Shown here: in pieces, positions 27,944 through 32,062 of the stretch
How positions within the stretch are numbered: the stretch's first letter is position 1
Layout of the letters: each line of letters begins with the position of its first letter
From: Actinomycetales bacterium
GTDB lineage: Bacteria > Actinomycetota > Actinomycetes > Actinomycetales > Cellulomonadaceae
Assembly (NCBI GenBank): GCA_020444245.1
Contig: JAHLLI010000004.1
Span: 124,001 to 188,000 of the forward strand
Reading direction: 5' to 3'
DNA length: 64,000 nucleotides
Position numbers and translations under genes: made by a program
Notes under the pieces: generated by a model
The model's input: only the letters and a program-made list of their open reading frames with translations
Database searches by the model: none
Told to the model about the DNA's origin: nothing

Positions 27944-30415
27944 CTAGATGAAGAAGCGGCCGTTGGACTCGTTGGCCTCACCGAGGAAGGTCGCGACGCC
28001 GCCGAGCTCGACGCCGTCGATGAGGTCCTCCTCGCGGATGCCCAGCAGGTCCATGGTCATGGTGCACGCGACCATCCGGACCCCGGACGCCTTGGCGGCG
28101 CCGATCAGCTCGGTCAGGCTCGGCACGTTGTGCTCGCGCATGACCTTCTTGATCATCGCGGGCCCGCCGCCGAGCATGTTCATGGTCGACAGCGGCATCG
28201 CGTCCGGCCCGGACGGCATCATGACGCCGAAGGCCCGCTCGAGCGCCGACTTCTCCGCCTTGGGGGCGTCCTGGCGCTTGAGAGCGTTCAGGCCCCAGAA
28301 GGTGAAGAACATCGACACCTCGTCGCCCATCGCGACCGCGCCGTTGGCGATGATGAACGCCGCGAGCAGCTTGTCCAGCTCGCCGGAGAAGACGACGAAA
28401 GCCTTCTTGTCCTTGATCCGCGCCGCGGCCCCGCCGAGCAAGGGTCCGCCCTTGCGGAACTTGGCGGCGTAGCCCGGGCCCTCGGGCGTGATCTCGACCA
28501 GCTGGTGGCCGTTGCGCTGCGCCCACGCGGGAGCGTCGAGCGCGAACCCGGGGTCCGACACGTGCGCGAGCACCTCGTCGCCGGGGGCCATGGTGAGCAT
28601 CGTCTTGGTCAGCCGCATGATCGGGCCGGGGCAGGCCAGGCCGGTGCAGTCCAGGTCGACCACGACGCCGGTCGGGCCGGCGGTGGGGCTGCTGGCCTCC
28701 TCGGCGTAGGAGATCATCGGCGTGGTGGACTCCATCGACGTCGGGTCGACGTCGTGGAACGCACGGAACGTCGTCGAGCCGCCGGACAGCGTCTTGACGT
28801 CGGTGAAGCCGCGCTGGACGAGCGATCGGTACGCCAGGTAGCTGCGGAAGCCGACCGCGCAGTACAGCCGGATCGGGGTGTCCTTGTCCCAATCCTCCTG
28901 CGCGGCACGCAGGGTCTTGAGCGGGACGTTCTCCGCGCCGGGGATGTGCCAGATCCCGAACTCGTCCGGCCCGCGCACGTCGATGATCCGCGCTCCGTCG
29001 GTGGCCTCGGGGTAGTCCTGGGCGTACCAGAGCTGGAGGTCACCGCTGAGCACGTTCGACGCGACGAAGCCGGCCATGTTGACCGGGTCCTTGGCCGAGC
29101 CGAACGGCGGGGCGTAGGCCAGCTCGAGGTGCTCGAGGTCGTGCACGGTCATGCCGGCTCGGATCGCGGTGGCGAACACGTCGAGGCGCTTGTCGACGCC
29201 GTCGAAGCCGGCCACCTGCGCGCCGAGGATCTTCCCGTCGTCGGGGGAGAACAGCACCTTGACGTGCATCATCGCGGTGCCGGGGTAGTAGCCGGCGTGA
29301 CCGTGCGGGTGGGTGCTCACGGTGCGGTACGGCACGCCGGCGGCGACCAGCTGCTTCTCGGAGGCGCCGGTACCGCCGGCCACCATCTCGAACACCTTGA
29401 CCACGCTCGTGCCCTGCACCGCGTCGAACGTCGTGTCGCGGCCGCAGATGTTCTCCGCGACGACGCGGCCCTGGCGGTTGGCAGGGCCGGCGAGCGGCAT
29501 GAGCCAGCTGTCCGGGAGCACCACGTGGCGCACCTCGACGGCGTCGCCCGCGGCCCAGATGTGCGGGTCGGAGGTCCGCATGTGCTCGTCGACCACGATG
29601 CCGCCGCGCGGCCCGATCTCCAGCCCGGCGGCGACGGCGAGCTCCGCGCTCGGCCGCACGCCCGCGGCCATGATCACCAGGTCGGTCTCGATGAAGGTGT
29701 TGTTCTTCAGCTCGACCTGGGTGCGACCGTTGGCCTTGCGGGTGAACGCCGCGGCCGCCGTGTTGAGGTGCAGCGTGATGCCGTGGCCCTGCAGGTACTT
29801 CTCCATCGCCCGGGTCATCTCGTGGTCGAGCGGCGGGACGATCTGGTCCGCCATCTCGACGACCTCGACCTTGACGCCGCGGTCGTGCAGGTTCTCGGCC
29901 ATCTCCAGGCCGATGTAGCCCGCGCCGATCACCACGGCGTGCTTGGCGCCGCCGGTGCGGGCCTTGTCGCCCTCGCCGTCCACGACGGCCTTGATGACGT
30001 CCATGTCGCCGATCCGGCGCAGCACGTGGATCGAGTCCAGGTCGATCCCGGGCAGCGGGGGCCGGAAGGGGGCGGCGCCCGGCGCGAGTGCGAGCGCCTC
30101 GTAGGGCTCGTCGTACTCCTCGCCGGTGTCCACGACCCGTGCCCGGACGGTCTTCGCCTTGCGGTCGATCGAGACGATCTCGACGCCCGTGCGCACGTCG
30201 ATGTCGAGCGTCTCGTGCAGGCTCTGCGGCGTCTGGAGGAGCAGCCGTGAGCGCTCCTTGATCGTCTCGCCGATGTGGTACGGCAGGCCGCAGTTCGCGA
30301 AGGAGACGTGGTGCCCGCGTTCGAACACCACGATGTCGGCGAGCTCGTCGAGCCTGCGGGCCCGGGCGGCGATCGACATGCCGGCGGCAACGCCTCCGAC
30401 GACAACGATCTTCAT
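27944..30415 (-). CDS. CoADR-rhodanese-TusA-DsrE fusion oxidoreductase
   Basis: 823 residues from ATG 30415. Domain 1 (1-455) is a flavin CoA-disulfide reductase: FAD motif VVGGVAAGMS, redox Cys42 in SFANCGLPYH, and NAD motif VVIGAGYIGLEMAE. Domain 2 (about 465-560) is a rhodanese with Cys519 in YCAVGFRSY. Domain 3 (about 583-655) is TusA-like, with DCTGLACPGPIM (Cys595 in CPxP). Domain 4 (about 668-823) is DsrE/DsrE2-like with Cys784 in VACTMTMDLLGI. The chain could move sulfane sulfur between thiols, CoA persulfide and a carrier. All key cysteines are present. It is divergent from a CPVC membrane protein across a CsoR-type operator, which suggests a response to persulfide. Confidence 0.93.
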   Translation of the reverse strand: MKIVVVGGVAAGMSIAARARRLDELADIVVFERGHHVSFANCGLPYHIGETIKERSRLLLQTPQSLHETLDIDVRTGVEIVSIDRKAKTVRARVVDTGEEYDEPYEALALAPGAAPFRPPLPGIDLDSIHVLRRIGDMDVIKAVVDGEGDKARTGGAKHAVVIGAGYIGLEMAENLHDRGVKVEVVEMADQIVPPLDHEMTRAMEKYLQGHGITLHLNTAAAAFTRKANGRTQVELKNNTFIETDLVIMAAGVRPSAELAVAAGLEIGPRGGIVVDEHMRTSDPHIWAAGDAVEVRHVVLPDSWLMPLAGPANRQGRVVAENICGRDTTFDAVQGTSVVKVFEMVAGGTGASEKQLVAAGVPYRTVSTHPHGHAGYYPGTAMMHVKVLFSPDDGKILGAQVAGFDGVDKRLDVFATAIRAGMTVHDLEHLELAYAPPFGSAKDPVNMAGFVASNVLSGDLQLWYAQDYPEATDGARIIDVRGPDEFGIWHIPGAENVPLKTLRAAQEDWDKDTPIRLYCAVGFRSYLAYRSLVQRGFTDVKTLSGGSTTFRAFHDVDPTSMESTTPMISYAEEASSPTAGPTGVVVDLDCTGLACPGPIMRLTKTMLTMAPGDEVLAHVSDPGFALDAPAWAQRNGHQLVEITPEGPGYAAKFRKGGPLLGGAAARIKDKKAFVVFSGELDKLLAAFIIANGAVAMGDEVSMFFTFWGLNALKRQDAPKAEKSALERAFGVMMPSGPDAMPLSTMNMLGGGPAMIKKVMREHNVPSLTELIGAAKASGVRMVACTMTMDLLGIREEDLIDGVELGGVATFLGEANESNGRFFI

Positions 30416-30523
30416 GGCTGGGGTCCTCGATTCCGTGGTCGGTGTGGCGCACGGACGACCCCCGGGGCCAGTCACGCACCCACGGTGGAGCGAAGCCGGA
30501 GTGGTTGCCCACCCCGTGGGGAT

Positions 30524-30539
30524 ATACCCTACGGGGTAT
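30524..30539. promoter_or_regulatory. CsoR/CstR-type operator
   Basis: ATACCC-TACG-GGGTAT is a perfect 6-bp inverted repeat with a 4-base spacer. It resembles operators of the CsoR family (pattern TACCC...GGGTA). It overlaps a possible -10 (TATACC, 30523-30528) and the start codon of the + strand membrane gene, and lies 109 bases upstream of the divergent oxidoreductase. No CsoR-family gene is in the window. Because the target handles sulfane sulfur, a persulfide sensor of CstR type is the better guess; copper or other metals cannot be excluded. Confidence 0.7.
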
Positions 30540-31053
30540 GTCGATCCCCACCCTGGGTCCCCGGTCCCGGATCGCCGTGACGCTTGTGGCGGCGACCGCG
30601 ACGCTGCGTGCCTGGCCGGCGCGCCGGTACGTCACAGCGTCGGTGGCCGCACTTGTCACCGTACTCGTCGTGGCGATCCCGACGGCGATGATCCCGAACC
30701 CGGTCTTCGGGCGTGAGATCGGCGTGACCGCCTGGGCGTGGCCGGCCCTCGTCGTCACAGCCGCGCTCTCCGGGATGCTGTTCGCGACCTACCTGCGGTC
30801 CGCCGAGGAGCGGGCCGAGGCGACCCGGGAGGGCCGTGCCGGTGCGCTGGGCGGCTTCCTGACGTTCCTGGCGGTCGGGTGCCCGGTGTGCAACAAGCTC
30901 GCGCTGCTGGCGCTGGGCTACACCGGGGCGATCCAGTGGTTCGCCCCGGTGCAGCCCTGGCTGGCCGTCGGCGCCGTCGGGCTGCTGTCGTGGGCGCTGG
31001 TGCGGCGGCTCTCAACCGGCGACGCCTGCCCGGTCCCGAGCACCGCCCGGTAG
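30538..31053 (+). CDS. Membrane protein with CPVC motif
   Basis: 171 residues from ATG 30538. There are four likely membrane segments: about 35-52, 66-84, 104-128 and 136-155. The third contains FLAVGCPVCNKLALLALGYTG, with Cys115 and Cys118 in a CxxC motif inside or at the edge of the membrane; Cys164 lies near the end. I cannot assign a family. Its start codon overlaps the operator described above, so a leaderless message is likely. A role in redox, metal or sulfur transport fits the operator and the divergent partner. Its 3' end overlaps the opposite glycosyltransferase by 136 bases. Confidence 0.75.
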   Translation: MSIPTLGPRSRIAVTLVAATATLRAWPARRYVTASVAALVTVLVVAIPTAMIPNPVFGREIGVTAWAWPALVVTAALSGMLFATYLRSAEERAEATREGRAGALGGFLTFLAVGCPVCNKLALLALGYTGAIQWFAPVQPWLAVGAVGLLSWALVRRLSTGDACPVPSTAR

Positions 31054-32062
31054 TCCCGGAACACGACCGAGCGCTGGACGCGGTAGCTCACCAGGAACAG
31101 TCCGGTGTCGCTGCCGACCTTGGCTACCAGCAGGGGCACACCGATCCAGGTGAGCAGGCTGAGCGAGGCGTAGCTCGCGCCGAGCAGCACGACGGCGAGG
31201 GCGGCGTACCTGAGCACGACGCCCAGCAGGGGCGCGCCCCTGGCGGGCCGGAACGTGATGTGCCGGTTGAGCGCGAGGTTCGCCGAAGCGCTCACGAGCC
31301 GTGCGCCGACGACGCCGGCGAGCAGCGAGCCGGTGACGGGTACGAGCACCAGGAGCGCCGTGGTGTCGACCACGAACGCCGTGAGCGACGAGGCCGCGAA
31401 CCAGAGCAGCGGCATGAGCACGCGCATCGAGTCCACCACCGGGCGGAAGTGCGAGGACGTGTTGTCCTCGAGGTAGATGGTCTCGATCTCGAGCTCCTCG
31501 ACCCGGTACCCGGCGGGTCCGGCCTCGAGCAGCAGCCGCAGCTCGTACTCGAACCGGTCGCCGCGCACGCCGACGAGCCACTCGAGCATGCTCGGCGGGT
31601 AGCCGCGAAGCCCGGTCTGGGTGTCGTGCACGTCGAGCCCGGTGACCAGGCGCACGAGGAACCGGGTCGTGGTGTTCCCGAGCCGGCTGCGCCATGGCAC
31701 GTGTCCGGTGAACCGTCGGCCGCCGAGCACCATCGCGTCCGTCTCGCGGATGCGGGCGGCGACGCGGAGCACGTCCGCCACCGCGTGCTGGCCATCGGCG
31801 TCGGCGCACACCACGGCCCGACCCGGGTGATGCTCGGCGACGTACCGGAAGGCCGCCTTGAGGGCGAAGCCCTTCCCGCTGTTCGGCGCGTGGCGCAGGA
31901 GCTCGGCGCCTGCGGCGGCAGCCGCGGCGAACACCTCGCGGTACGGGCTCCGCTGCCGTCGTCGATCACGACCACATCCAGGCCGGCGTCCGCGCGGCGC
32001 AGCGCGGCCACGAGGTCGACCAGCCGGTGGTCCGGCTCGTAGGCGGGGATGACGACGATCAC
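30918..32062 (-). pseudogene. Glycosyltransferase family 2-GtrA fusion, frameshifted
   Basis: The N-terminus reads MIVVIPAYEPDHRLVDLVAALRR..VVVIDDGSG in one frame from GTG 32062. The rest, SPYREVFAAAAAAGAELLRHAPNSGKGFALKAAF onward, continues in another frame. Joining them needs one extra base near 31946-31952. The second frame carries the donor-site CADADGQHA and GLRGYP, then a C-terminal GtrA-like four-helix domain (ALNRHITFRP, SYRVQRSVVFRDY). Such fusions move polyprenyl-linked sugars for surface polymers. The break is a true frameshift or a sequencing error. The tail overlaps the CPVC gene by 136 bases. It starts 5 bases after the glycosidase gene and is probably cotranscribed with it. Confidence 0.8.

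Follow-up and report, generated by a model that had tools for sequence, protein, structure and literature searches.

A CstR/ScCsoR-Type Palindrome Between a Four-Domain Sulfur-Transfer Enzyme and an Uncharacterised CPVC Membrane Protein in an Actinomycete Genome

In the window analysed here, a 64-kb stretch of an actinomycete draft genome (G000, 4.41 Mb; window at G000:C10:124001-188000), a 16-bp palindrome lies over the start of an uncharacterised membrane-protein gene and beside the divergent gene of a four-domain sulfur-transfer enzyme. We consider it probable that this palindrome is the operator of a CstR-type repressor encoded on contig C32, which would control both genes, and that the membrane protein most likely serves as a thiol relay. 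The operator, the type of repressor and the domains of the enzyme are of known kinds, while the membrane family and the dispersed regulon are new. The features concerned are:

27944-30415, minus strand: four-domain sulfur-transfer enzyme, 823 aa, with domains from Pfam and NCBIfam
30416-30523, no strand: divergent intergenic region from the enzyme start to the operator, aligned with loci L057 and L058
30524-30539, no strand: 16-bp palindrome ATACCCTACGGGGTAT, putative operator of a CstR/ScCsoR-type persulfide repressor (ATACC-N6-GGTAT)
30538-31053, plus strand: uncharacterised membrane protein, 171 aa, with CPVC at 115-118 and Cys164, its start codon inside the operator

The Palindrome and Its Conservation

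The perfect palindrome that an earlier note on this DNA had described over the start of the membrane gene was found at 30524-30539 without mismatch, and the span given there for the region, 30416-31053, is correct. The palindrome reaches into the membrane-gene ATG (30538-30540), and 108 bases separate its end from the ATG of the divergent enzyme gene. The membrane gene may be leaderless, with TACCCT (30525-30530), 7 bases ahead of its ATG, as a putative -10 box. It is the sole copy in the window at up to two mismatches and matches the pattern ATACC-N6-GGTAT (TAC-X8-GTA) exactly, whereas the copper-type spacing TAC-X9-GTA (N7) has no match across the 64 kb. Shuffled versions of the window hold on average 0.31 copies at up to two mismatches, and 27 of 100 hold at least one, so that the window by itself is weak evidence and the whole-genome count decides. 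In G000, the genome-wide search that the note had asked for returned 13 exact copies of ATACCCN4GGGTAT and 22 at up to one mismatch, with none for the backward pattern; the looser 14-mer TACCCN4GGGTA has 19 copies vs 2 reversed. Counts of ATACC-N6-GGTAT are 15 in G000, 10 in G066, 16 in G107, 7 in G143 and 6 in G102, with a reversed count of 0 in each.

In both relatives that hold the enzyme and membrane genes as an adjacent pair (L057 and L058), the site is kept as ATACCGTAGGGGGTAT, one mismatch away from the 16-mer and exact for ATACC-N6-GGTAT. The conservation expected in such relatives thus holds for the operator pattern but not for every letter of the palindrome. Alignment of the intergenic region shows the operator retained although L058 differs over much of it.

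Genome-Wide Sites and Their Targets

Target identities in G000 were taken from Pfam or NCBIfam profile matches; genes were called by a simple codon-composition script, for which reason some start positions are uncertain, and the labels "sulfur," "metal" and "long frame" were assigned by the author and not blind. By the author's count, 12 of the 15 N6 sites of G000 precede sulfur or thiol genes:

two thioredoxins
two SQR-like flavoproteins, one of which passes the NCBIfam threshold for type III SQR while the other scores far below it
a rhodanese with a PDO-rhodanese (PDO, persulfide dioxygenase)
three more rhodaneses, one of them preceding the repressor gene
a CoADR-rhodanese
CcdA
a YgaP-like membrane domain
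the window pair of four-domain enzyme and membrane protein

The other three targets, which have no evident sulfur role, are a carboxymuconolactone-decarboxylase-like protein, a SLAC1-family transporter (where the site lies inside the longest open frame yet ahead of a later possible start) and cytochrome bd subunit I. The last of these genes has an exact N6 site at L172:3069 (G000:C8:17468) about 150 bp ahead of it, and no cytochrome bd subunit I gene was seen among the N6 sites of G066 and G107. One-mismatch 16-mers in G000 precede, among others, TusA-DsrE genes and another thioredoxin, and one before a short-chain dehydrogenase (L174) has no clear sulfur link. Six of the 19 looser 14-mers lack the full 16-mer: that at C11:188811 precedes TusA-DsrE genes as a one-mismatch site, and those at C11:103981, on C21 (two), on C22 and at C30:42633, beside which no sulfur gene was seen, were excluded from the targets. 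Across G066 and G107, 21 of 26 N6 sites precede a counterpart of a G000 target, a hydrogenase-type beta subunit, a glutaredoxin or the window pair, with no evident sulfur target at the other five (L190:4585, L191, L198, L201, L204). The ccdA gene has an N6 site in both G000 and G066.

Several loci of this set carry further detail. The one-mismatch sites L171:3065 and L173:13223 precede two operons with sulfhydrogenase-like beta and delta subunits (NCBIfam matches below cut-off for those scanned), and a similar Fer4_22 protein of G107 has an exact N6 site (L195:3035) 79 bp upstream. On contig C11 of G000 (L010 and L173:1-7225), two TusA genes, a DsrE-like and a DsrE2-like gene are followed by a large FAD/Fe-S protein and later a 4Fe-4S protein, HdrA-like and HdrC/B-like by eye, and two one-mismatch sites lie ahead of the second TusA. 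In G107, a glutaredoxin gene (L205:2682-2939) begins 27 bp from an exact N6 site.

The Four-Domain Enzyme

The divergent gene was said in the earlier note to fuse CoA-disulfide reductase, rhodanese, TusA and DsrE domains with all key cysteines, and profile searches bear this out:

residues 1-449: CoA-disulfide-reductase-like domain, with Cys42
residues 474-550: rhodanese domain, with Cys519
residues 587-655: TusA domain, with Cys595 (CPxP)
residues 670-821: DsrE2-like domain, with Cys784

The protein thus has the CoADR domain with a Cys42-type active site, joined to a rhodanese domain, that marks CoADR/CoAPR enzymes. The score on the NCBIfam equivalog TIGR03385 is 454.5 bits, below the cut-off of 578.8. 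It probably acts as a CoA-persulfide reductase to which TusA and DsrE carriers have been added.

A search with its first 312 residues in 200 genomes of the taxonomic family gave matches in 72, and 30 loci were examined. In 24 of these, one being the own locus, no stop interrupts the frame before the end of the locus (at least 792 codons), a "long frame" that by length alone, irrespective of domain content, leaves room for the four-domain form. All 24 have a site upstream (20 exact N6, 4 with one mismatch; reversed control 0), as do five of the six shorter-frame loci with an exact N6 site. Distances were measured from where the alignment begins, which is residue 22 in 12 of the 24 loci and residue 10 in one, so that true enzyme starts lie up to 63 nt nearer.

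Repressor Genes and Operator Spacing

As the earlier note had supposed, CsoR-family genes (PF02583) are present in the genome; four were found in G000, one of them with CstR residues. Three keep the Cys-His-Cys set:

L023: paralog with csoR-copA
L022: paralog with copZ
L021: paralog about 1.2 kb from an HMA-type P-type ATPase

The fourth, at C32:9935-10150, keeps both cysteines and has Gly at the others' His in an alignment with the three paralogs and two plasmid regulators, and in this lack of the His it differs from the copper-type paralogs; two cysteines without the intervening His ligand are the mark of CstR. Its score against PF02583 is 74.1 bits (cut-off 22.8), and it ends in KLFLSLA, as do the two plasmid regulators, which lie in rhodanese/TauE stretches. 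The sole NCBIfam match at E ≤ 1e-10 is to copper-sensing RicR, at 45.7 bits vs a cut-off of 175; two copper-type paralogs score 135 and 112 on this profile, also under the cut-off. The closest solved relatives, 7mq1 and 7mq3, are labelled CsoR, and we take both to be S. pneumoniae CstR. In its unit (L020), a rhodanese whose likely start adjoins an N6 site is followed by the repressor, a methyltransferase and a CoADR-rhodanese with an N6 site of its own. Judged by its sequence, the C32 protein is a CsoR-family repressor with CstR residues.

Because copper CsoRs use the same arms, the arms alone leave the matter undecided and the spacing decides. The copper CsoR sites of S. lividans are described as TAC-X9-GTA, i.e., N7, in the available part of the report (PMC3902906). 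ScCsoR of Streptomyces coelicolor binds ATACCn6GGTAT, polysulfide weakens this binding, and the site is compared there, in the portion of the paper at hand, to those of copper CsoR and RicR (PMC7533328). A scan for ATACC-Nx-GGTAT in G000, G066 and G107 gave 0/0/0 at N5, 15/10/16 at N6, 6/2/4 at N7 and 0/0/0 at N8, with reversed controls of 0 throughout. With labels that were not blind, five of the six N7 sites in G000 lie at metal loci vs none of the 15 N6 sites (Fisher p 0.0003), a count that drops to four of six if the ABC unit counted by adjacency is left out. These N7 sites are at:

csoR-copA
copZ-csoR
a YHS protein, then a P-type ATPase
an ABC unit adjoining the YHS/P-type ATPase unit, counted by adjacency
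a P-type ATPase divergent from a response regulator

One of the six is unexplained. An N7 palindrome at L210:3710 (G000:C8:56209), identical in G066 and G107, has no evident copper gene beside it. A one-base rule of N6 for sulfur and N7 for copper, tested in three Actinotalea-like genomes and in agreement with two published Streptomyces motifs, could separate CsoR-family regulons with the same arms from genome sequence alone. The CstR-like TTHA1953 of Thermus has, according to the accessible text, a different consensus (PMC10318464), so that the rule need not hold outside the tested group.

An operator for one of the three copper-type paralogs would have the same arms, and the csoR-copA site of C40, ATACCCTACGGGGGTAT, is the window site plus one extra G; this reading is nonetheless highly improbable in view of the division of N6 and N7 sites with respect to metal loci and the N6-type sites before all 24 long-frame enzyme genes, and copper control of the window site is rejected on spacing and targets. 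The notion that the palindrome arose by chance and lacks function draws on the only mildly unusual count within the window, and it is left with practically no probability by the 13 exact 16-mers genome-wide against none reversed, by the zero counts at N5 and N8 and by conservation across loci, which rule it out. The palindrome is real. The note's reading of a CsoR/CstR-type operator gains support from the presence of repressor genes, the conservation of the site and targets that are mostly sulfur or thiol genes; its assignment to the CsoR family stands and is narrowed by the spacing, which favours a persulfide repressor over copper CsoRs. A role as a persulfide-repressor operator, to which binding is predicted, is well supported computationally.

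The Membrane Protein

In line with the earlier description of a membrane protein without recognised family, Pfam, NCBIfam and PDB-sequence searches returned nothing above cut-off (for the window protein, no Pfam or NCBIfam match at E ≤ 1), and a known family is rejected on these grounds. All 37 aligned sequences retain Cys115, Cys118 and Cys164. Under the positive-inside rule, the charges of the protein suggest that the N-terminus and the tail are inside. In a predicted structure of middling confidence (mean pLDDT 71.3, pTM 0.67), the third membrane helix (97-126) is broken at CPVC, and a fold search with this model had a best match at E 1.1. Of 11 aligned members, 5 match MerT (PF02411) over the CxxC hairpin, the best at E 0.00023; all of them fall below the gathering cut-off, with a top score of 21.6 vs 32.9, and one member matches DUF998 at E 0.00024, below cut-off as well. 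The window protein has no MerT match in the Pfam scan. Membership in MerT is rejected on the gathering cut-off and the match is kept as a likeness. Among the window protein and the aligned members scanned, there is no Pfam match to YeeE/TsuA or CcdA/DsbD.

A second small membrane protein (L017:6923-7327), without Pfam match at E ≤ 0.0001, carries CTPC and a C-terminal Cys, is encoded 3' of an N6-site thioredoxin gene and has relatives in L152, L158, L164 and L190. The 3' end of the window membrane gene is overlapped by the open frame of a glycosyltransferase/GtrA-type gene (30918-32062, minus strand; GtrA and part of GT2 by Pfam), which seems to be broken into two frames near 31935-31945, through a frameshift that lies either in the gene itself or in the sequence.

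Distribution and Neighbours of the Membrane Gene

At E ≤ 0.001, relatives of the membrane protein occur in 42 of 200 genomes of the taxonomic family and in 31 of 396 of the phylum; 8 of the 42 match only weakly (22-26% identity to longer proteins), and 34 match strongly. Of the loci in these 34, 31 split without overlap into 18 with the operator and 13 beside a BlaI-type gene, and those of the remaining three genomes (own, G107 and G036) also have the site. Among the 31, exact N6 sites lie upstream in 17 (11 within 350 bp and 6 at 350-2600 bp), and one locus has a one-mismatch site (L147). A thioredoxin (in L142-L145) or a rhodanese-PDO lies between site and membrane gene in the six distant cases. 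DsbA-like and CcdA-like genes divergently adjoin 11 of the 13 BlaI-linked copies. Within the home taxonomic family, the membrane gene thus stands under a persulfide-type operator or beside BlaI, the latter mostly with DsbA-CcdA. No N6 site was found at the membrane gene in the 29 phylum-level loci examined; of the 31 phylum genomes with a match, G308 and G521 were viewed at less than full width, as was the weak-match G254. In the 29 loci, the neighbours are BlaI in 3, rhodanese in 6 and TlpA-like in 2 (L137 counted twice), with one locus having DsbA- and CcdA-like genes only and no reference neighbour found in 18. On a 61-row tree, the site label can be explained by 4 changes vs 16.4 in shuffles, and well-supported branches force at least two of the 4; the link to the operator is therefore clustered but was gained or lost more than once, and a single origin is unsupported.

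The adjacent enzyme/membrane pair was seen in three near genomes only (own, G066 and G107). Conservation of the pair as a unit, for which the earlier note had proposed to look, was thus not borne out among the loci examined; the operator instead accompanies each gene separately.

Relatives of the membrane protein also occur in 60 plasmid records. All four copies examined lie beside a DsbA-like gene (annotated as thioredoxin-domain in three) and a CcdA gene; on three plasmids, DsbA-like, CcdA and membrane genes are arranged consecutively, the CcdA and membrane genes sharing 1-4 bases. Two of the four stretches also hold rhodanese, TauE and a CsoR-family regulator, and BlaI is present with an M56 peptidase in one. 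The regulator of L207 is directly preceded by an exact N6 site and that of L206 by a pair of one-mismatch sites; in L209, a DsrE gene has two exact N6 sites ahead of it, and L208 has none.

Proposed Mechanism and Alternative Roles of the Membrane Protein

By analogy with ScCsoR and CstR, we infer that the C32 protein represses and that sulfane sulfur lifts the repression. The repressor, encoded elsewhere (contig C32) downstream of a rhodanese gene, would sit over the membrane-gene start, 108 bp from the enzyme gene, when sulfane sulfur is lacking, and both genes would be shut. Sulfane sulfur would modify its cysteines, the DNA would be released, and both genes would be induced, as would those at the other sites. 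Persulfide sulfur is probably accepted by the rhodanese, TusA and DsrE cysteines of the enzyme, which, by analogy with CoAPR, probably reduces CoA persulfide. At the membrane, CPVC and Cys164, the latter on a putatively cytoplasmic tail, would link the outside to the cytoplasm as a relay for sulfane sulfur or reducing equivalents, with thioredoxin, TusA or rhodanese as possible cytoplasmic partners. Conservation, topology and gene neighbours give such a thiol relay about an even chance. The narrower proposal of a new class of membrane sulfane-sulfur carrier, in which the CxxC would take sulfur from DsbA/CcdA-linked thiols outside and Cys164 would hand it to cytoplasmic TusA, rhodanese or thioredoxin, is tentative and on balance unlikely; if true, the carrier would connect the thiol system of the envelope with the response to persulfide in Actinomycetota.

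It is quite possible, if short of an even chance, that the membrane protein carries electrons and not sulfur, as a third partner of DsbA and CcdA that would reduce extracytoplasmic disulfides or persulfides with electrons from thioredoxin. The DsbA-like and CcdA-like genes beside 11 of 13 BlaI-linked copies, the gene rows of the three plasmids with their 1-4 base overlaps, the thioredoxin of L142-L145 and the N6 sites of ccdA in G000 and G066 all point that way, whereas the window gene has its operator in common with a sulfur-transfer enzyme, 6 of the 29 phylum loci (one being the source of the query) have a rhodanese gene after the membrane gene and CcdA is already known for the reducing role. 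An improbable reading makes the protein a MerT-like carrier of Hg or Cu, joined to the sulfur response where metal and sulfide stress meet. It could appeal to the MerT matches in 5 of 11 members and to a P-type ATPase gene within the 10-kb stretches of two of the four plasmid copies, but those matches stay under the gathering cut-off, DUF998 reaches an equal E-value in one member, the window protein itself lacks a match, and neither merP nor merA is listed in the four plasmid stretches, whose gene table is incomplete.

Relation to Known Systems

The circuit proposed here, a thiol relay and a four-domain enzyme under a CstR-type repressor, is close to that of ScCsoR in S. coelicolor, where a two-cysteine CsoR-family repressor recognises a 16-bp ATACCn6GGTAT site and has PDO and rhodanese targets; autoregulation, suggested here by the site before the rhodanese-repressor genes, is shared as well (PMC7533328, from the available text). 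That circuit is described there with four genes, whereas 15 exact sites are spread over the present genome, and the four-domain CoADR, SQR, thioredoxins, CcdA and the CPVC membrane protein go beyond it. CstR of S. aureus and E. faecalis, with CoAPR, is similar as a persulfide sensor over genes for sulfurtransferase, PDO, SQR or CoA-persulfide reductase, so far as the accessible sections of the papers describe it (PMC5480029; PMC9405070). In S. aureus, CstR is said in the available part of the source to regulate a single operon directly (PMC5480029); in contrast, the sites are dispersed here, and the enzyme adds TusA and DsrE domains. The copper CsoR regulon of S. lividans shares the repressor family and the TAC/GTA arms, yet the spacing is X9 against X8 here, and its targets in the text at hand are copper efflux genes (PMC3902906).

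Open-licence literature, which is not searchable by sequence, yielded no description of the membrane family or of a comparably wide actinobacterial CstR-type regulon. To our knowledge, the crossing or sensing of sulfane sulfur across Gram-positive membranes is poorly known, and the three-cysteine membrane family, present also on plasmids, is a direct candidate for either at the membrane. If the thiol-relay reading is right, the protein would resemble MerT (PF02411) in having a membrane Cys pair and a cytoplasmic-side Cys, with weak profile similarity over the hairpin; its CxxC lies near the third helix, unlike the vicinal pair of MerT in the first. The published relays of MerT (PMC5715351) and YeeE-YeeD (PMC11073785), in the parts available, show that such designs exist and do not speak to membership. 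YeeE/TsuA with YeeD (PMC11073785) and SoxT (PMC11582611), as described in the accessible text, are likewise membrane Cys relays that hand sulfur species to a TusA-type protein; the present protein differs from YeeE/TsuA in having no Pfam match to that family and in carrying one of its three cysteines on the tail.
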